IMG/VR virus record: IMGVR_UViG_3300046817_001352
Location: 1 to 28,781 of that record
DNA length: 28,781 nt
Origin: a virus
Reading direction: 5' to 3' (one strand)
In this document: piece by piece, positions 10,175 to 25,292 of the stretch
How the letters are laid out: the number at the start of each line of letters is the position of its first letter
Position numbering within the stretch: position 1 is the stretch's first letter
The notes under the pieces: model-generated
Seen by the model: the letters and a program-made list of their open reading frames with translations, nothing else
The model's database searches: none
What the model was told of the DNA's origin: nothing
Translations under genes and position numbers: made by a program

Positions 10175-10276
10175 GTTATTCACTATTATTTAGTCATGGC
10201 GTTTTTATATACTTTTTATAGGAGTGTGTCTAAGAAAAGTATATAAAAAAGGGCTCGCTAAATAATAGTGACTAAC
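10175..10276. repeat. 102-bp nested palindrome, possible origin or cruciform
   Basis: The outer arms (10175-10193 and 10258-10276) match at 18 of 19 positions as inverted repeats. The inner arms (10202-10216 and 10235-10249) match perfectly over 15 bp and are very AT-rich (A/T runs around TATATA). The two gaps between outer and inner arms are each exactly 8 nt, so both pairs fold in register into one long hairpin with an 18-nt loop. It lies about 100 bp before the primase-helicase gene, which is a common place for a replication origin. A transcription-terminator or regulator-binding role is the alternative. Confidence 0.7.
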
Positions 10277-10380: not shown

Positions 10381-12675
10381 ATGCCCGCTGGACGCCCGAA
10401 GACCTATACCCGTGTATCTCAATCTGCATTTAAGAACATCCCCGATGAATTGAAGAAAGTTCCGCAATGGATTTGCTGGAAATTATTTCAAAGAGAAAAT
10501 GAAAAGTTTTCAAAGATGCCGATCAATCCACACACAGGTTTAGAGGCATCAACAGACAAGCCCAGGACGTGGGGCACGTACCAGGAAGCCGTTAATAGAT
10601 TCATTGCAGACACCACATTACACGGTTTGGGATTCGTGTTTACCGCAACCGACCCTTATACAGGAATAGATATCGATGATTGCCGTGATAAAGACACGGG
10701 TGTCATCGCCGACTGGGCATTATCGGTTATTGAGCCAATGGATTCTTATACCGAAATTTCTCCATCTGGAATGGGAGTGCGAATCATCATCGAAGCAAAT
10801 TCTCCTGGTGAATTTAAGCGTCGTAATAAAATTGAAATATACTCTTCCGGACAATATCTGACGATTACGGGAGATGTATATGGAACGCGGTTGCCTGTTG
10901 AAAAACGGCAACAAAAACTTGATGAACTATATTTAATGGTATTCGGAGATGACATCAAGAAGAAAGAACGGCCGGCTCCGGAAGTGCATAAAGACGCCAA
11001 GCTGGCTCGCATTCAAAAGATTAAAGATAAAGACCTGCTGGACAAAGCCGTTCAGGCGGCGAACGGGCCGAAGTTTACCAGGCTATGGGAAGGGAATCTT
11101 GAAGACCACGCAGGAGACCATTCTCGGGCGGACCTTTCTTTATGCGCGATCCTATGCTACTGGACGCGGGCAGACGGGCCAAGAATAGATAAACTCTTTC
11201 GCCAGTCGAAGCTATTCAGAAAGAAATGGGATGAACGGCACGGTAAACTCACATATGGTGAAATGACTGTCAACCAGGCGTTGGGGGCAGCCGGCGCCTT
11301 ATACGACCCGGATTCTGATTCGTCTAATATAACAACTAGGAATGATATAGGGAACGCCGGCATATTCGTGCAGATGGTTGGAGATGATTTCCGCTGGTGC
11401 CCGCAGTGGAAAATGTGGCTGCACTGGAATGGTATTTCCTGGGAGCGGGATGCCGAACCCGAATTGCGACGTGCGACGGAAATTGTCTCTGCGGAATTAT
11501 TAAGGCGTGCCGCGCAGCAGCCGCCTGATGAATCTAAGAAAGAAAGACAGTGGGCGATCGATGCCGGTCAACTCTCGAGATTAAATGCTATTGACCAGAT
11601 TTCAAGGCAGCGGTTGATTGTCCGCACAAATAACTTTGACGCTGACCCGTTCTTATTTGCCTGCGCGAATGGAGTAATCGACTTGCGTGAAGGCAAACTC
11701 CGCGAAGGGCGCAAAGACGATTGGACCACCAGGCTGTCGGATATCGCTTATGATCCTGATGCAACCTGCCCGCTGTTCGAGAATTTCCTCCTGGAAGCCA
11801 TGGAAGGAAATAAAGAAATGGTTGAATACCTCTGGCGTGTTCTCGGGTATTGCCTGACAGGCGACACATCCGAACGGTCATTTTTCTTACTGCACGGGCA
11901 TGGCCGTAACGGAAAGACCACATTCGCCGAGGTCCTGCACGCGCTCGCGGACGGTTACGGACAAACAGCCAGGTTCTCCACGTTCCTCAGGAAGAATCAG
12001 GTGGCCACGGGTGCCAACGATGACGTGGCGCACCTGGTCGGCGCCCGTGTCGTAATCGCGTCGGAAGCCGACGACGCGGCAACGCTGGATGCCGCGGTTG
12101 TGAAAACGCTCACGGGTTCGGACACGATCCGGGCAAGGTTTTTATACGGCCGGGAATTCGAATTCAAGCCGGCGTTTAAATTATTTATGGTGACAAACCA
12201 CGTCCCTAAGATTCAGGAATCTTCGCACGCGCTCTGGGATCGCCTGCACCGGATACCGTTTGGATATCGCGTTCCTGAAAATAAAATAGACAAAAAACTT
12301 CCGCTTAAACTTTTCGGCGAGCTCGATGGAATTCTTGCTCGTAGTGTGCGGTCCTGCCTTGACTGGCAGAAGAACGGTCTCCAGCCGCCTGAAAAAGTAA
12401 TCAAGGCCGGCGAGGAGTTAAAAGAGAATATGGATACGCTCGGGCAGTTTATCCGCGACATCGTTGTGAAAGATGAAAACACAAAAATACTGCATTCTGT
12501 TTTGTACGACGATTACGTGAGATGGGTCAAGGAAAATGGAATGCGGTTCCCCGTGACCAGGCGCACGCTGGCAATTTATCTGCGCGAGCACGATTTCAGC
12601 TCATACAATGGCGGAGGAAACTATCTAACCTGGAAAGGGATTTCGACACGGGGAGAAGGGCAGAGCTCGCTATAA
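10381..12675 (+). CDS. Primase-polymerase/D5-like superfamily 3 helicase
   Basis: Predicted replication initiator of 764 aa that primes and unwinds DNA. The N-terminal ~200 residues resemble the primase-polymerase (AEP, NrS-1-type) domain: VPQWICWK near residue 30, metal-binding GIDIDD (D97, D99), and SPSGMGVRI, where many relatives have His in place of Arg. A linker with charged helices follows. The C-terminal half is the P4/D5-type helicase: Walker A GHGRNGKTT (506-514), an acidic Walker B-like ASEADDA segment, and a VTNHVP sensor motif. SD AGGAGG lies 10 nt before the ATG. It is the first gene of the rightward operon, next to the nested palindrome. Confidence 0.9.
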   Translation: MPAGRPKTYTRVSQSAFKNIPDELKKVPQWICWKLFQRENEKFSKMPINPHTGLEASTDKPRTWGTYQEAVNRFIADTTLHGLGFVFTATDPYTGIDIDDCRDKDTGVIADWALSVIEPMDSYTEISPSGMGVRIIIEANSPGEFKRRNKIEIYSSGQYLTITGDVYGTRLPVEKRQQKLDELYLMVFGDDIKKKERPAPEVHKDAKLARIQKIKDKDLLDKAVQAANGPKFTRLWEGNLEDHAGDHSRADLSLCAILCYWTRADGPRIDKLFRQSKLFRKKWDERHGKLTYGEMTVNQALGAAGALYDPDSDSSNITTRNDIGNAGIFVQMVGDDFRWCPQWKMWLHWNGISWERDAEPELRRATEIVSAELLRRAAQQPPDESKKERQWAIDAGQLSRLNAIDQISRQRLIVRTNNFDADPFLFACANGVIDLREGKLREGRKDDWTTRLSDIAYDPDATCPLFENFLLEAMEGNKEMVEYLWRVLGYCLTGDTSERSFFLLHGHGRNGKTTFAEVLHALADGYGQTARFSTFLRKNQVATGANDDVAHLVGARVVIASEADDAATLDAAVVKTLTGSDTIRARFLYGREFEFKPAFKLFMVTNHVPKIQESSHALWDRLHRIPFGYRVPENKIDKKLPLKLFGELDGILARSVRSCLDWQKNGLQPPEKVIKAGEELKENMDTLGQFIRDIVVKDENTKILHSVLYDDYVRWVKENGMRFPVTRRTLAIYLREHDFSSYNGGGNYLTWKGISTRGEGQSSL

Positions 12676-13051: not shown

Positions 13052-13249
13052 ATGATTGAGATAATCGTTACCGAATATGAAATGAGCCACGGGAAACGTC
13101 CTCGAGGAATTGGCCAGTGGGCCTTCCAGATGGGATACCGGGCAGTAAGTGAACCTTATTGGGTAACTGGTTCTTACGGAACCGCGGTAAAGATTGCCAG
13201 GCAGAAGGCTCGTGAATTGGGAGTATCTGTTATAGTGGTGTTGCCATGA
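13052..13249 (+). CDS. Hypothetical protein, 65 aa
   Basis: SD GAGGAGAAGGA directly precedes the ATG. The small alpha/beta protein has an N-terminal strand (IEIIVTEYEM), a central aromatic stretch (WAFQMGYRAV), a helix with SYGTAVKIARQKA, and a C-terminal strand (VSVIVVLP). The pattern suggests a compact globular fold of unknown function. Its stop overlaps the next ATG (ATGA). Confidence 0.75.
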   Translation: MIEIIVTEYEMSHGKRPRGIGQWAFQMGYRAVSEPYWVTGSYGTAVKIARQKARELGVSVIVVLP

Positions 13250-13419
13250 CCTGCGACCAATGCGAAATGCTCAACATCAACGGCCACGCCTGCCACGAAA
13301 CGGGCTGCCCGAATGCTCGTAAGGAGTGGGATGGGTATGAGTGGGTTAAGGTTTATGAATGTCCGGAATGCGGTTCCACGGTCCGCGAATCCGAGACCTG
13401 CTGCGGGAGTCAGGACTAA
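13246..13419 (+). CDS. Zinc-ribbon mini-protein, 57 aa
   Basis: Short frame coupled at both ends (ATGA with the upstream gene, TAATG with the downstream one). It carries an N-terminal CDQC, later HACHETGC, then CPECG and a CC pair near the end. This gives at least two CxxC knuckles, so one or two zinc sites are likely. The role is unknown; small phage zinc ribbons often bind nucleic acid or host proteins. Confidence 0.75.
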   Translation: MTCDQCEMLNINGHACHETGCPNARKEWDGYEWVKVYECPECGSTVRESETCCGSQD

Positions 13420-13604
13420 TGAAAATTAACAAAGAAGAAGTAATTCAGTTATGGCATATAGCTCGGGTTGCCTTAGACCTACCGTCGCGTTTTGACCGTT
13501 TGCAGTATGTAAAGCGAGAATATCTCAAGGCGCACCCGGAATGGCTTGCAAAACCAACAACTTTGTGGATTGAAATTTGTGACGCGACATTGGTGATGCG
13601 GTAA
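13419..13604 (+). CDS. Hypothetical protein, 61 aa
   Basis: The start at 13419 (TAATG overlap with the zinc-ribbon gene) is preferred over a longer in-frame version that would overlap that gene by 60 bp. The product is basic and helical with several Trp/Tyr (QLWHIARVAL, EYLKAHPEWL). Its stop overlaps the next ATG as TAATG. The family is not recognised. Confidence 0.65.
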   Translation: MKINKEEVIQLWHIARVALDLPSRFDRLQYVKREYLKAHPEWLAKPTTLWIEICDATLVMR

Positions 13605-14245
13605 TGGAAACTCCCCTCCGCACCCTGAAACCCGGAGCCGTATTTCATCTTGACCTGTATGAATACGGCATGAAACAAGGTATCTTGGTTGACGTCACGC
13701 GGGGTTCGGCGACGGTGGCCTGCAAGTCGACGAAACCTCCGCGGGTGATCGTCTCGCAAGACGGCCGGAAGTCGAAGCCGATCGCAGCACCCGACATTAT
13801 TCAGCACTGGGATTTGGATACTCTCGTGGTTCCCACGGGCGAGTCCGAAGATGTTCAAAGGTGGTTAGACAAACTAAAAGGAGAAACGACCATGGCAACC
13901 GCAGCAGCAGCAATCACGGGAAAGAAATCGGCAAAAAAGGCGGTGAAGGCGAAGGAACCGAAGAAACTTCTCACGACCCGCTACACCGTAACGGCGAAGG
14001 CAGTCCCCGAGAAGGTCGGATACGAGAACGAGGAAAAACAGACGCACAACGCCGTGATCTACCGCGCGCTGAAGGCCGCCAAGGAACCCTTGACCTTCTC
14101 GGAAATCACGGACGCGATCGGCAAGAAGGAATTCGGGTCCGAATCAAAGGCCGTCGACAATATTTTCCGGTGGCACATTCAGGACCTCATCAAGAAGGGC
14201 TTCGTGAAGTCGATCGAGAAACGCGAGGAAGTCGAAGCGGCCTGA
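13604..14245 (+). CDS. Putative winged-helix DNA-binding protein, 213 aa, with internal start
   Basis: Two-part protein. Residues 1-95 are a small beta-rich domain. Residues ~97-130 are an Ala/Lys-rich basic linker (ITGKKSAKKAVKAKEPKK) like histone or nucleoid-protein tails. Residues ~140-205 resemble a winged helix: a helix HNAVIYRALKAA, then LTFSEITDAIGKK, and WHIQDLIKKGFVKSI. Codon 97 is an ATG (13892) with a good SD (AAAGGAG, 8 nt), so a short 117-aa basic form could also be made. It probably binds DNA as a regulator or nucleoid protein; the exact family is not recognised. Confidence 0.75.
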   Translation: METPLRTLKPGAVFHLDLYEYGMKQGILVDVTRGSATVACKSTKPPRVIVSQDGRKSKPIAAPDIIQHWDLDTLVVPTGESEDVQRWLDKLKGETTMATAAAAITGKKSAKKAVKAKEPKKLLTTRYTVTAKAVPEKVGYENEEKQTHNAVIYRALKAAKEPLTFSEITDAIGKKEFGSESKAVDNIFRWHIQDLIKKGFVKSIEKREEVEAA

Positions 14246-14273
14246 GCGGGGCACGCAAAGGTCGCGGCCGGCA

Positions 14274-14379
14274 AGGAACGCACGGCGTTATGACCCGTGC
14301 GTTCCTCGAGGGATGCGATCCCTAACACTCAGGAACGCGGGCGCGGCAGTACCGGATTAACCGGCCGGAGCGCGCCCGC
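14274..14379 (+). ncRNA. Three consecutive strong stem-loops, candidate structured RNA
   Basis: In the 161-bp gap after the winged-helix gene there are three perfect hairpins: 12-bp stem 14274-14285/14295-14306 (9-nt loop); 6-bp stem 14309-14314/14318-14323 (3-nt loop); 9-bp stem 14337-14345/14371-14379 with a 4-bp CCGG inner stem. None is followed by a T-run, so simple termination is unlikely. AGGAACGC occurs in both the first and third elements. It is very GC-rich compared with the flanking small genes. It may be a structured leader for the next gene, a processed RNA or an RNase-stable spacer. Confidence 0.45.
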
Positions 14380-14406
14380 CTCTCCTAAACTTGAACAGGA
14401 GGCATC

Positions 14407-14496
14407 ATGCTTCACTTCGCGGAATGGCTCGTATCGGCCGGTCTGATTTTGTGGCTCGGCTGCTTGGCAATTGAAACCGTTTTCGAAGGATTTTAA
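14407..14496 (+). CDS. Membrane mini-protein, 29 aa
   Basis: AGGAGG lies 4 nt before the ATG. The whole product is one membrane helix (WLVSAGLILWLGCLAIETVF) with acidic residues at both ends. It follows the structured stem-loop region directly. The function is unknown. Confidence 0.55.
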   Translation: MLHFAEWLVSAGLILWLGCLAIETVFEGF

Positions 14497-14500
14497 GCCG

Positions 14501-14686
14501 ATGAAAGTCAAACTAAGAATAGATGAGGTGTACCCTTGTCTTATTGTCAATAAAGAATTTTTGGGTGGTGAAGAAGTTGAAATTCCAGACGAATTATATA
14601 ACAAATTTTGTAAGTTAAGTCACGAGTTACAATTGGCAGAAGATGAAATACAAGAAATTTGGGATAAACAGGAAAAAACCAAATGA
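14501..14686 (+). CDS. Hypothetical acidic protein, 61 aa
   Basis: The start is ATG at 14501, 4 nt after the mini-protein stop, with AAGGA about 10 nt upstream. It has an N-terminal strand pair (VKLRIDEVYPCLIV) and an acidic C-terminal helix rich in Glu and Lys. It is distinctly AT-richer than its neighbours, with AT-ending codons, suggesting separate acquisition. Its stop overlaps the next ATG (ATGA). Confidence 0.7.
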   Translation: MKVKLRIDEVYPCLIVNKEFLGGEEVEIPDELYNKFCKLSHELQLAEDEIQEIWDKQEKTK

Positions 14687-14931
14687 GCCGGAAGAAAACT
14701 CCCAAAGGGAAGGCGCTGCTCCACGCCCTCCAGCGCATGCAGAAAAACAAAGACGGATATACTCACTCCACGGATTCGCGGCAGCAGGCCCGCGCCCGAT
14801 CGCGGATGAAGGCGAAGGAGCACGTCACGAATTTATATGGACCGGAACCCAGGGAGAACCGCCGCGCCCTGGAGCTCGCGTTTGCCAAGACATTTGACAA
14901 GCAGGAAAGGATCAGGGTTATCAAACCATGA
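14683..14931 (+). CDS. Hypothetical basic protein, 82 aa
   Basis: It is coupled to the preceding gene by ATGA. It is rich in Lys, Arg and Gln and helical throughout (ALLHALQRMQKNK, RQQARARSRMKAK), with no membrane segment. The composition suits an RNA- or DNA-binding or host-modulating peptide, but no family is recognised. Its stop overlaps the next ATG. Confidence 0.65.
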   Translation: MSRKKTPKGKALLHALQRMQKNKDGYTHSTDSRQQARARSRMKAKEHVTNLYGPEPRENRRALELAFAKTFDKQERIRVIKP

Positions 14932-15017
14932 TAGAAGCCATTTGGTACGGATTCGTTGGGTACTGCGGGTTAATGGCATTCCTGTACGCAATCGCCATAT
15001 GGAAGGATATCCGATGA
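14928..15017 (+). CDS. Membrane mini-protein, 29 aa
   Basis: ATGA overlaps at both ends place this frame exactly between its neighbours. It is a single hydrophobic helix (GFVGYCGLMAFLYAIAIW) ending in a basic KDIR. This resembles the mini-proteins at 14407 and 23000 in size and design. Function unknown. Confidence 0.55.
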   Translation: MIEAIWYGFVGYCGLMAFLYAIAIWKDIR

Positions 15018-15163
15018 ATATCAAACCGCGATTGACGGCTGACGACCTCGTGCATAGGGCAGCCCGCCGGCAATTTCGCATAAACCTGCTATTGATGGCG
15101 ATCCTGATTTTTATTATTTGGATTCCACTAGTAATTAAATTGGTCAAGCAGTTCAAACACTAA
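15014..15163 (+). CDS. Membrane protein, 49 aa
   Basis: ATG at 15014 overlaps the upstream stop (ATGA); a longer in-frame version would run through two other genes. The basic N-terminal half (KPRLTADDLVHRAARRQ) precedes one membrane helix (LLLMAILIFIIWIPLVI) and a short Lys-rich tail. It is probably an inner-membrane protein with its N-terminus in the cytoplasm. Function unknown. Confidence 0.6.
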   Translation: MNIKPRLTADDLVHRAARRQFRINLLLMAILIFIIWIPLVIKLVKQFKH

Positions 15164-15168
15164 AAAAT

Positions 15169-15200
15169 TTGCCCTGAATGTTGACTACTATGATAGTAGA
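15169..15200 (+). promoter_or_regulatory. Candidate promoter/operator before the methyltransferase
   Basis: The 46-bp gap contains the near-consensus elements TTGACT and TATGAT, but not at proper promoter spacing. It also has a 7-bp palindrome CTACTAT-G-ATAGTAG (15185-15199). The 9-mer TGCCCTGAA just before it also occurs before the nested palindrome at 10159. A regulator-binding site is at least as likely as a promoter. Confidence 0.35.
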
Positions 15201-15209
15201 AAGGTGAAC

Positions 15210-16316
15210 ATGGAATTCAAGAAGTGCCTGATTATCAACAGTTACGGCGGGAGCCTCGTCCTGGCGGCGAAGAAACTGAAACTAGACGTAATCTGTTCAA
15301 TGGAAGACACTGGCTTCGGCATAGACGTGCAGCGGGCGAACTTCCCTGACATGCCGTATATTGAACGTCTGCCTTGGCCGAAGCAAGACCTGAAAGGCGT
15401 GATGGTCATCGCTCACCCGCCTTGCTCGTCATTCAGCAACCAGTTTGCCGGCCATAAGGGAGTCGACGGAGAATCGTTCAAGTGCCATACCCGGGTAATG
15501 GATTACGCGCTTGGCCTGGGTTGTGCCAGTCTGGCAATTGAATCCGTGCCGGCATTCCTGGAAGGAGCGCGGAAAATTCACGAGCGCATGGGAAAAATTC
15601 ATGGCTACAACATTTTCAGAATCCGGCAGAACGCTGTCACGTTCGGCGTTCCGCAGTGGCGGCCGCGATGCTGGGTAATTTTCACAAAACTGAAATCGAT
15701 GCGGCTCTGGCATAAACCCCGTGTGCTTCGTATTGAAGATATTCTGCAAGCACACGGGGACGTGCTGCCGTATAATTCAGGAATCACTGGCGCCTTTAAA
15801 AAGATGGCCGCGGTCGGTATTAATGAGAAAAAAATATTCGCCGATATCCTCTCGGGCGAGCATACGGGATCGCTGTTGGCGATAGGTCAGAAGATTCTTG
15901 AAATTGACGACCCGGGACCGAACCACACGGAAGTGCGGAAGCGCTGGAACCTGGGCAGGCAGTTCGGAGTGAAACTGCCACGGGTTCTGAATCCTGAAGA
16001 ATTCGGGACCACGATTCTGCACGACAGCTCATTCTTCGTAATGGGTCGGGAACTGTTTCGCGAGGAATACTGCAAGCTGATGGGATTCCCTCCGGATTAC
16101 AAGTGGCCGGGGCAGCGAGCGAAGGATTTTCGTTTGTACCTTTCCAAAGGCGTCTGCCCGCCGGTCGCGGAGTGGATATTGAAGATGATGAAGTTGAATC
16201 TGGAAGGAGATTTAATCTTGGGAGCTGGAAAAGTACTTCCAGTTGACTTAAAACCAGGCGAGCTCGCCGACTTCCAAATCACAAAGAAAGAAGCGCTTGA
16301 GAGGAGAAACAAGTGA
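15210..16316 (+). CDS. DNA cytosine-C5 methyltransferase
   Basis: Transfers a methyl group from S-adenosylmethionine to cytosine in DNA. Motifs in order (numbering from the ATG at 15210): a motif I variant with YGGS (about 12-15) and a following acidic SMED; motif IV HPPCSSF with catalytic C72; motif VI ESV (111-113, in place of ENV); motif VIII GVPQWRPR (147-153 region); and motif X-like GVCPPVAEWI near the end. The region between VIII and X would recognise the target. No restriction endonuclease lies nearby, so it is an orphan enzyme, probably protective. A GTG two codons upstream is the alternative start. It ends by overlapping the kinase. Confidence 0.88.
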   Translation: MEFKKCLIINSYGGSLVLAAKKLKLDVICSMEDTGFGIDVQRANFPDMPYIERLPWPKQDLKGVMVIAHPPCSSFSNQFAGHKGVDGESFKCHTRVMDYALGLGCASLAIESVPAFLEGARKIHERMGKIHGYNIFRIRQNAVTFGVPQWRPRCWVIFTKLKSMRLWHKPRVLRIEDILQAHGDVLPYNSGITGAFKKMAAVGINEKKIFADILSGEHTGSLLAIGQKILEIDDPGPNHTEVRKRWNLGRQFGVKLPRVLNPEEFGTTILHDSSFFVMGRELFREEYCKLMGFPPDYKWPGQRAKDFRLYLSKGVCPPVAEWILKMMKLNLEGDLILGAGKVLPVDLKPGELADFQITKKEALERRNK

Positions 16317-18373: not shown

Positions 18374-20063
18374 AAGGGGTTACGACAAGCTGCCTGAGCA
18401 GTTGCCGCCGGGATTCATGTCCGCGGATTTCGAGACCACGGGTCTCAAAGTCCGCGACGGGGCACGTCCGTTTGGCCTCGCCGTCGCGAATAAGACAGAC
18501 GAGTGGTTCTTGCCGTGGAACGATCGCACAATTGAATGGTGTCTGGATCAGCTAGCAGAGCGTGATTTAGTTTTCGCGGAAGCGAAGTTTGATATTGGCA
18601 TGGCCCTGGCGGACGGGGTTTCCTTCGAGGATATGGGAATCCGTCCGCACGACGTTCAGCACTGCGCCGCGCTGCTCGACGACCGTCGGCGCAGGTTCGC
18701 GCTCGATATCCTCGCTAAGGAACGCCTAGGCCGCGGGAAGGCTGTACTCCCGCCCGGACCGATCCATGAGTTGCCCGTGGCAATTGTGGCGCCTTACGCC
18801 CGCCAGGACGCCCGCTTGACCTACGATTTATGGGCCGACTACCAAGCGGATATCAAGCGCGAAGAATTAAATGAAGTGCTTGACCTAGAGGATTCGCTTT
18901 TGTATTGTACCCTGGCCATGGAAGAAACCGGCGTCAATATCGATGTTCCGAAACTATTAAAATGGATCGATGAAGTTGAGCAAGCGAGAATCGGCCGGCT
19001 GCTGGCAATCTGGAGAAAAACAGGACTGCGGATCAATCCTTCATCCGGGCCCGACATGGCGAAGCTGTTCGGGTATCTGAATTTGTCGCATGCCAATTCG
19101 TTCACGGAACCGATTCTCGAGGAACGCGCGGAACATCATCCGGAAATCAAGCTGGCTCTAGAAGCGCGGCAGCTGGCATCGTTCCTGAGCAAATACCTTA
19201 TCAAGTATCGAGACGCGGTAGATTCCAAAGGAGTCCTGCGGTACAAGTTGCACCAGTTGCGCGCCGACGAAGGCGGAACGATTACGGGGAGATATTCCTC
19301 GAGCGGGGACTGCAACATCCAGCAGGTCATGAAACCTGACAAGCAAGCGGAAGTATTGAATAAGTGGATTCTGCGGTCGCTGTTCTTGTGCGATAAGGGA
19401 AGCCGCGGAATGCTCGATGCCGACGCATCGCAGATTGAATTCCGCCTGTTCGCCCACTACGCGGACGTTCCGAAGCCGCACTCCGCGAGGCTGGCCGAGG
19501 CATATACAAAAAATCCCGATATCGATTTCCACCAGTTGATAACCGACGACATTCTACACGGGTGCATGCCCCGTGTGCTTGCCAAGAACTGGAACTTCAG
19601 GAAACTATACGGAGGCGGCGCGGCAAAGGGCGCCCGGATGAGCGGGATGGATGTTGATGAAGCCAAAAAGCAAGACCAGCAGTACGATCGCCTGTTTCCC
19701 GAAGCTGGCCGGCTATTAAAATATTGCGAGAAGATTGCGCGCCGCCGCGGGTGGATCAAGACTTTCATGGGACGGCGTCGGAGGTTTGACGAAGGCGACC
19801 GGTATTACTCGGCACTCAACTGCGTGCTCCAGGGCGGAGCCGCCGAGCTCATGAAGTTGAAACTGCGCCACATTTACAAGGAACGGCGCACCCTGGGATT
19901 CAAACTGCGAGCCACGGTGCACGATGAATTGTTCGGGGACATGCAGAAGAAGAAAACAGAAATGCTGATGAATGAGATTCTACGGGAACAGGAGTACAAA
20001 TTGAAAATTCCAATCACCTGGTCCGTGGGAACCGGCAGAAGCTGGTATGAGAGTATGAAATGA
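18321..20063 (+). CDS. polA: DNA polymerase I-like (family A) with 3'-5' exonuclease
   Basis: Replicative polymerase of 580 aa. Exonuclease: ADFET (D36, E38), AKFD (D91), YARQD (Y159, D163), so proofreading looks intact. Polymerase: motif A DADASQIEFR (D368; Ala replaces the usual Tyr after the Asp), motif B with R418, K422, F426, Y430 at canonical spacing, motif C VHDE (H534-E536) and a QGGAAELMK helix. F426 corresponds to E. coli F762. There is no 5' nuclease domain, as is usual for phages. AAGGA lies 5 nt before the ATG, which overlaps the dCMP deaminase gene by 53 bp. Confidence 0.95.
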   Translation: MSQANLFQAQTSPISHSERGYDKLPEQLPPGFMSADFETTGLKVRDGARPFGLAVANKTDEWFLPWNDRTIEWCLDQLAERDLVFAEAKFDIGMALADGVSFEDMGIRPHDVQHCAALLDDRRRRFALDILAKERLGRGKAVLPPGPIHELPVAIVAPYARQDARLTYDLWADYQADIKREELNEVLDLEDSLLYCTLAMEETGVNIDVPKLLKWIDEVEQARIGRLLAIWRKTGLRINPSSGPDMAKLFGYLNLSHANSFTEPILEERAEHHPEIKLALEARQLASFLSKYLIKYRDAVDSKGVLRYKLHQLRADEGGTITGRYSSSGDCNIQQVMKPDKQAEVLNKWILRSLFLCDKGSRGMLDADASQIEFRLFAHYADVPKPHSARLAEAYTKNPDIDFHQLITDDILHGCMPRVLAKNWNFRKLYGGGAAKGARMSGMDVDEAKKQDQQYDRLFPEAGRLLKYCEKIARRRGWIKTFMGRRRRFDEGDRYYSALNCVLQGGAAELMKLKLRHIYKERRTLGFKLRATVHDELFGDMQKKKTEMLMNEILREQEYKLKIPITWSVGTGRSWYESMK

Positions 20064-24204: not shown

Positions 24205-24401
24205 GGTTTTCGTTTGATTTTGAACAAAACCAATTTGCTCTGCCAATTCGGTTTTGGAGAAAACCGAGAGTTATGATATTCTTAAATTCTCCTATTCGCA
24301 AGGAAGTTTCAACCTACCCGAACTACTTGCGAATTGTTTGGTGGTATTGGGATATATGCCTACAATGGGGTAGTAAACTAAAGGAGAAAAAGACGTCATG
24401 A
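24201..24401 (+). CDS. Hypothetical aromatic-rich protein, 66 aa
   Basis: It starts with ATGA overlap and ends overlapping the next ATG by 4 nt. It is rich in Phe, Trp, Tyr and Arg (SFDFEQNQFALPIRFW, LRIVWWYWDICLQW) and AT-rich in coding. No recognisable domain. The last ~20 codons hold the SD (AAAGGAG) of the next gene. Confidence 0.55.
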   Translation: MRFSFDFEQNQFALPIRFWRKPRVMIFLNSPIRKEVSTYPNYLRIVWWYWDICLQWGSKLKEKKTS

Positions 24402-25255
24402 AGACAGGAAAAGCAAAGACAAAAGAAACGGAAAAACAACCAGGCCCCACACCCCCGGCAGAAACGGCGGCGATCGACCGGCCGGCCCAGACTGCCCTTG
24501 CGCGGCCGGCCTCGCGTGGTCCGGTCGAGGGATTCGAGAACATGGGCGCCGAGGACGTCACGCAGCCGCGCCTCATGCTCACCCAGAACGGGACGCCCCA
24601 GCGCAAGGAAGAAAATGACAATTACATCGAAGGCTTGAAGGAAGGAGACTTTTTCAATTCCGTGACCGGCGAGATTTACGGAAAAAAGGTCCGCATCACC
24701 CCCGTGATGTTCTTCAAGCAGAACCTGCTGTTCCAGGATATCGACGAAGGCGGCGGACTCCTCTGCCGCGCCGTAGATGCCAGGCATGGCGTGGGAACCC
24801 CAGGCGGGGACTGCGCGACCTGCCCCAAAATGCAGTGGATCGACAATGAACCGCCCGAGTGCATGCTCTACCACAATTATGCCGCCCTCGTCATTCCTGA
24901 CAAGGGCGCCCCGAACCTGGACGCCCTTGTCATTGTGTCCATGAAGTCGACCAACATTAAAATGGCGAAGGACTGGAATTCGCTCATGCGCATGCGCCAG
25001 GACGAGAATCACAACCAGCTTCCCATGTGGCGCGGGATTTATGAACTCGAATCCCAGTTCCGTCAGGAAGGGAAGTATTCCTGGTACGTCGCCGTACCCA
25101 AGAACGCCGGGATGCACAAGGCCGGACTCAACGCCGCCTATAATTCCTGCCACGATGCTTATCTCGCGGTACGAGAAATGTACGCGGCCGGCAAACTCAT
25201 GTTCGAAGCCGAAACTCTGGCCGCGGATGCCGAGTCGTTTGACCGGTCGATGTAG
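24398..25255 (+). CDS. Possible ssDNA-binding protein, 285 aa, Cys-cluster
   Basis: The N-terminal ~50 residues are Lys/Pro/Ala-rich and disordered. From residue ~52 comes the pattern DVTQPRLMLTQ, then GDFFNSVTGEIYGKKVRITPV, beta strands that resemble a phage family I know as unnamed proteins beside polymerases. Four Cys (123, 139, 142, 155) in a GGDCATCP context could bind zinc. Its GC-rich, strongly biased codons suggest high expression, and it is the last gene of the replication block, followed by a hairpin. A single-stranded-DNA-binding role is a reasonable guess, not shown by a motif. Confidence 0.6.
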   Translation: MKTGKAKTKETEKQPGPTPPAETAAIDRPAQTALARPASRGPVEGFENMGAEDVTQPRLMLTQNGTPQRKEENDNYIEGLKEGDFFNSVTGEIYGKKVRITPVMFFKQNLLFQDIDEGGGLLCRAVDARHGVGTPGGDCATCPKMQWIDNEPPECMLYHNYAALVIPDKGAPNLDALVIVSMKSTNIKMAKDWNSLMRMRQDENHNQLPMWRGIYELESQFRQEGKYSWYVAVPKNAGMHKAGLNAAYNSCHDAYLAVREMYAAGKLMFEAETLAADAESFDRSM

Positions 25256-25262
25256 AGAATGG

Positions 25263-25292
25263 GTCCACCCGTGATCATATACACGGGTGGAC
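25263..25292 (+). terminator. Strong hairpin, probable intrinsic terminator
   Basis: Perfect 11-bp stem (GTCCACCCGTG 25263-25273, CACGGGTGGAC 25282-25292) with an 8-nt AT-rich loop, followed by TTAATTTC. The U-tract is short, so termination may be partial and let some transcription reach the small genes beyond. It lies 8 bp after the stop of the preceding gene. Confidence 0.7.

Follow-up and report, generated by a model that had tools for sequence, protein, structure and literature searches.

In the early mRNA of phage T7, RNase III processing hairpins stand between the cistrons, and in well-studied phages such intercistronic hairpins protect or process the 3' ends of mRNAs. Another class, the PeSLs of T4-like phages, reportedly described by Comeau and colleagues in 2014, is said to consist of composite promoter-terminator motifs that mediate modular shuffling; in PeSLs a promoter lies next to a stem-loop, and several copies occur per genome. 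Stem-loops at translation initiation regions of T4, such as that of gene e, are treated in a section of PMC3014915. In this study, we analysed three hairpins lying between two genes of an uncultured phage, in a 28,781-base virus record (IMG/VR IMGVR_UViG_3300046817_001352), the whole of which is called the window here. The short non-coding stretch holding them is probably a working RNA element of its gene cluster, and is put forward as a candidate for such a role.

The plus strand of the window carries replication genes, namely a primase, a thymidylate synthase, a DNA polymerase and a helicase, and a cytosine methylase gene is also present, while an ORF on the minus strand shows terminase similarity slightly under the Pfam cut-off. 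Relatives of the primase were found in 1388 phage records, every one at less than 60% identity, and relatives of the methylase in two phage records at 24% identity. The gene upstream of the hairpins encodes a protein with helix-turn-helix similarity at its C-terminal end, also under the Pfam cut-off, which gave zero matches at E 0.1 when the phages were searched. Between the stop codon of this 213-aa ORF and the following 29-aa ORF there is a gap of 161 bases. The features of the region are as follows:

13604-14245, plus strand: upstream gene for a protein of 213 aa, which shortens to 117 aa if the in-frame ATG at 13892 is the start
14246-14273, plus strand: first 28 bases (5' end) of the non-coding stretch, none of which differs in the relative
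14274-14306, plus strand: hairpin 1 (H1), 14274-14285 with 14295-14306, 12 bp perfect, 9-nt loop
14309-14323, plus strand: hairpin 2 (H2), 14309-14314 with 14318-14323, 6 bp, loop GCG
14331-14386, plus strand: hairpin 3 (H3), 14337-14345 with 14371-14379, 9 bp perfect, loop of 25
14397-14402, plus strand: Shine-Dalgarno-like AGGAGG ahead of the mini-protein, read from the sequence
14407-14496, plus strand: 29-aa mini-protein ORF, with one residue changed in the relative (28 of 29 identical)

The three hairpins proposed in an earlier note on this DNA at 14274-14379 are thus real, with stems of 12, 6 and 9 bp, and the absence of a poly-T after them was borne out, there being no T-tract at 14274-14379. 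The loop of H3 contains an inner 4-bp CCGG/CCGG helix, and a 4-bp base of AGGA (14331-14334) with UCCU (14383-14386) is possible; all three stems end 5' of the Shine-Dalgarno sequence. The same note had pointed to AGGAACGC as shared by the first and third hairpins, and copies do stand at 14274 and 14331; the sequence is not peculiar to the element, however, because others lie at 18718 and 19120 and, on the opposite strand, at 12269 and 14299. The region is also GC-rich relative to its surroundings, as had been proposed: 69% at 14260-14379 compared with 31% at 14500-14619 and with 53-59% in 120-base segments of the upstream gene (13900-14259).

With reference to chance levels, H1 is the only stem of at least 12 bp with a loop of at most 12 in the window, and none was seen in 10 shuffles. 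Stems of at least 9 bp with loops of at most 25 gave 22 nested counts against 2.1 in shuffles; they lie at several places, including 10202-10249 and 15717-15759, where longer-looped stems of at least 12 bp are also found. Stems of at least 6 bp with loops of at most 8 were observed 54 times against 51.4 in shuffles, and therefore H2 by itself means nothing. Folding of 14260-14400 gave a z of -4.3 on the plus strand and -5.7 on the minus strand, with none of 200 shuffles as good on either strand. Among 956 segments of 120 nt scanned on both strands, the segment at 14221 ranked 3rd on the minus strand (z -5.5) and 19th on the plus strand (z -3.1), so that in the fold and in the scan alike the window's minus strand folds better than its plus strand. 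The pairs of H1 and H3 had probabilities of at least 0.98 in all four window contexts folded, and those of H2 at least 0.91 in three of the four; in the 14260-14400 fold H2 does not form (probability 0.0) and is replaced by a helix of the 5' segment with the H2 region, which is absent in the three longer contexts.

Other structured sites were noticed in the window during these scans. At 10175-10276 there is an AT-rich inverted repeat of 47 nt, 81% complementary and with its arms 8 nt apart, which sits in the space that separates the leftward gene block from the rightward one, within a block common to the relative at 99.7%; a segment there has the lowest z among the 956 segments, and the repeat is a candidate for an origin or for a region of divergent control. 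Next lowest in z is the segment at 15661; here a 12-bp perfect stem with a 19-nt loop lies at 15717-15759 inside the methylase gene, and 15691-15790 is identical to the relative at 99 of 100 bases, compared with 93% for its block. Finally, an 11-bp perfect hairpin with an 8-nt loop (25263-25292) is located shortly after the stop of ORF 24398-25255 and is followed by TTAATTT, not a full T run.

Eight scans of viral contigs disclosed one true relative, IMGVR_UViG_3300046816_000349. Its identity to the window falls into blocks, namely 99.7% across 8.7 kb on the left side, 90% across 13602-14318, 97% over 14318-14394, 94% over 14395-14496 and 93% over 14692-16297, with 13057-13602 of the window left unaligned as a replaced block. 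The upstream 213-aa gene adjoins the element in the relative too, and the gene directly downstream has been swapped: the relative has a different 59-aa ORF (L004:9755-9934, 31% GC), with a purine-rich stretch ahead of its start, between the element and the 29-aa ORF. The AT-rich ORF of the window at 14501-14686 (31% GC) has no counterpart in the relative. It can be observed that the 29-aa ORF, common to both genomes, has unlike AT-rich small ORFs beside it, before it in the relative and behind it in the window, which gives the place the look of a slot for exchangeable small genes.

Comparatively, the non-coding stretch itself has changed little, as 9 of the 149 aligned sites of 14246-14394 differ, a comparison that leaves out a 61-nt insert of the relative. 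At fourfold sites the differences amount to 20 of 98 in the upstream gene (Fisher P 0.001 against the element) and to 32 of 190 downstream (9 of 34 and 23 of 156 in two genes, with the 29-aa ORF, 3 of 14, left out of the sum; P 0.002), these P values and those for pairing being exploratory, since the tests were chosen after the alignment had been seen. Six of the nine differences fall in H1 (6 of 33 sites against 3 of 116 elsewhere in the element, P 0.004). Because differences in the element are scarcer than at the fourfold sites on either side, it looks constrained, which is good though not conclusive evidence, and the mosaic make-up of the two genomes, with blocks of differing identity, may blur the comparison.

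Of the six differences in H1, four occupy two neighbouring facing pairs. The pair 14280-14300 is G-C in the window and C-G in the relative, and is thus compensated; the pair 14279-14301 is C-G in the window and a T-C mismatch in the relative, and is thus broken. The fifth difference breaks the end pair 14274-14306 from one side, and the sixth falls in the loop. The exploratory P for at least two double-changed stem pairs is about 0.002 under random placement, and that for the exact opposition of the changes is 0.006 if adjacent changes are counted as single doublet events. In H3 the single change turns a G-C into a G-U pair, which keeps the pairing on the plus strand; pairing is kept only if the plus strand is the RNA, because the minus strand would read C-A. 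The arms of H2 are kept, and the relative's stem has 9 bp with the 61-nt insert (L004:9606-9666) in its loop; the three extra pairs draw their 3' strand from the insert, which also forms helices of its own. The relative's region has only a modest folding advantage over shuffles, with a z of -1.9 (7 of 200 shuffles as good), and with pair probabilities of 0.70-0.80 for H1 and of 0.97, 0.70 and 0.32 for H3 in three contexts.

Taken over the 27 pairs of H1 to H3, and for the one relative only, one double change is kept, one double change is broken, one pair is broken from one side and one becomes G-U. Covariation as a proof was rejected, since the broken pairs (2 of 27) are no fewer than random (mean 2.6) and the one of two double changes that restores pairing is about the chance expectation; from two sequences covariation is suggestive only. 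A second compensated pair in the consensus was not counted, as its place is close to the Shine-Dalgarno sequence, at which point the alignment enters the unrelated inserted gene.

Coding through the hairpins was also rejected, as in the relative the 61-nt indel shifts the frame of the ORFs that cross H2; because this insertion is not a multiple of three, no frame crossing H2 is common to both genomes. The candidate structured RNA of the earlier note, taken as a structured non-coding element in a phage operon, gains support from this missing shared frame, from there being fewer differences than at fourfold sites on either side, and from the coincidence of the paired changes in H1. A constrained, structured non-coding element is, in short, likely. 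That the hairpins are instead chance palindromes, or a functionless and degenerating inserted repeat, is very unlikely: H2 at its chance level and a pair breakage not below random would agree with it, but the 12-bp short-loop stem is absent from the 10 shuffles, the divergence is under that of fourfold sites on both sides, and neither the window nor the relative's record has a further copy.

The earlier suggestion of a leader controlling the mini-protein at 14407 is weakened, as the relative places its different 59-aa ORF between the element and the mini-protein. Since the next gene thus differs, a leader specific to the 29-aa ORF is unlikely. A leader could in principle tune the translation of whichever gene follows through the tract UCUCCU (14381-14386), pairing with either the AGGA at the base of H3 or the following Shine-Dalgarno sequence. 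Both genomes retain the tract and, behind it, a purine-rich Shine-Dalgarno-like sequence, ahead of unrelated genes, and the folds of the relative do pair the two; two of the four window contexts, however, pair the Shine-Dalgarno sequence with the start codon in a local hairpin instead, and the two genomes have different genes in the next position. We regard such a general leader as distinctly unlikely.

In the family searches, Rfam 15 gave no match at the gathering threshold in the whole window, and at a relaxed score there were four matches in 14150-14500, all far under their gathering scores; six matches, likewise far under, were listed for 9500-9960 of the relative, where the relaxed score alone was used. 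ARAGORN found no tRNA or tmRNA gene in the whole window. No terminator-like site was found on 14274-14379 on either strand, the nearest on the plus strand, a weak candidate within the mini-protein ORF, being at 14425-14440; such sites numbered seven in the scanned stretch, fewer than the 10.2 of the shuffles. A scan for sigma-70-like promoters, and for that kind only, found none on the element, the nearest on the plus strand being at 13492-13521. With no promoter-like or terminator-like site, the element bears no mark of a separate transcript.

These results bear on the reading of the element as a separate small RNA of the phage, some 110-210 nt long, processed from the operon mRNA or made from an unrecognised promoter, which would act in trans, with RNA or protein of the host or the phage as its target, and whose middle domain would be expandable. 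The compact layout of three hairpins, the limited divergence seen in H3 and in the 28-nt 5' segment, the folded insert in the relative's middle arm and the independence from the downstream gene all speak for a small RNA; the lack of a sigma-70-like promoter just upstream and of a terminator, the Rfam matches all below threshold and the mere two sequences speak against it, and we hold it to be doubtful. Rather doubtful, too, is the bolder proposal that the two genomes are the founding pair of a new family of trans-acting, neighbour-independent phage non-coding RNAs, in which the 5' segment and the 3' hairpin would be constant, the first stem would vary in sequence with most of its pairing retained, and the central arm would be expandable by the 61-nt folded insert.

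Copies and further relatives were sought as well. A repeat element was rejected, as there is one copy in the window and one in the relative's record, both records being possibly incomplete; the minus-strand match at 14274-14306 is H1 matching itself and no second copy. Two scans of genome contigs found no relative of the element, the phages held no match to the 2-kb stretch or to the element, and the plasmids held none to the element. The relative's version had one 36-base match among the phages (E 0.7, in a tape measure gene), which was taken as chance. A pattern scan of viral contigs returned 30 stretches including the relative, and 28 of the 29 others have stems of 2-4 pairs adjoining the pattern. 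The remaining contig, L019 (7141-7162, minus strand, near the 3' end), has an 8-pair stem around the loop of H1; blastn at E 1e-3 did not match this contig to the window, nor did tblastn at E 0.01 match it to eight window proteins, and its stem is probably chance among 29 pattern matches, a distant motif being the less likely reading. Of a second pattern scan, three of the four stretches resemble each other and by eye are unlike the element, and this set was rejected.

An element acting at the level of DNA was also weighed, that is, a palindromic binding, replication or recombination site, double-stranded or extruded as a cruciform, at a hot spot of gene exchange. Gene content does change beside and within the stretch (H2 carries the 61-nt indel, the ORFs behind 14394 and 14496 are different, and the block 13057-13602 is replaced), and the structure is strong on both strands. 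The half-sites of H1, on the other hand, differ in the relative and leave an imperfect palindrome, unlike a conserved protein-binding site, and the larger AT-rich inverted repeat at 10175-10276 is the better origin candidate. We consider a DNA site unlikely.

The reading we prefer, tentatively and short of an even chance, is that 14246-14394 is a structured intercistronic segment of a polycistronic plus-strand mRNA, serving as an island of 3'-end stability or processing. The segment begins immediately behind the stop of the 213-aa gene upstream; its GC-rich stems would act in cis by stopping 3'-to-5' exonucleases, and might also, or instead, be cut by a host ribonuclease of the RNase III or RNase E type. 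As an outcome, the mRNA of the upstream gene would be separated from the exchangeable small genes behind it. The observed basis is the position, the absence of a shared reading frame, the structure potential, a divergence below that of fourfold sites, and persistence while the downstream gene was swapped; from it we infer transcription, cleavage and a stabilising effect. Protection or processing in particular is proposed because of the position together with the role of such hairpins in well-studied phages. The meaning of the locus is that an intergenic stretch is less diverged than the surrounding silent sites while small genes exchange, and the element is a concrete candidate for RNA function in a phage lineage with only one relative found.

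Compared with the known systems, the element is like the hairpins of the T7 early mRNA in having strong stems between co-directional phage genes and no terminator T-tract, and it differs from them in consisting of three separate short stems, whose cleavage is hypothetical. With the PeSLs it shares the placing of hairpins in a gap where small genes exchange, but it is without a promoter-like site in the sigma-70-like scan or a terminator-like site, and it is single-copy in each of two records, neither known to be complete. If the small-RNA reading holds, it would resemble the RNA of PMC12197685 in being a short structured RNA from a longer phage transcript, though the element gave no Rfam match at the gathering threshold and is at most a candidate for a discrete RNA. 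Although its stems stop before the Shine-Dalgarno sequence and the gene that follows is not fixed, it has in common with the stem-loops at translation initiation regions of T4, such as that of gene e (PMC3014915), a structure near a phage Shine-Dalgarno sequence.
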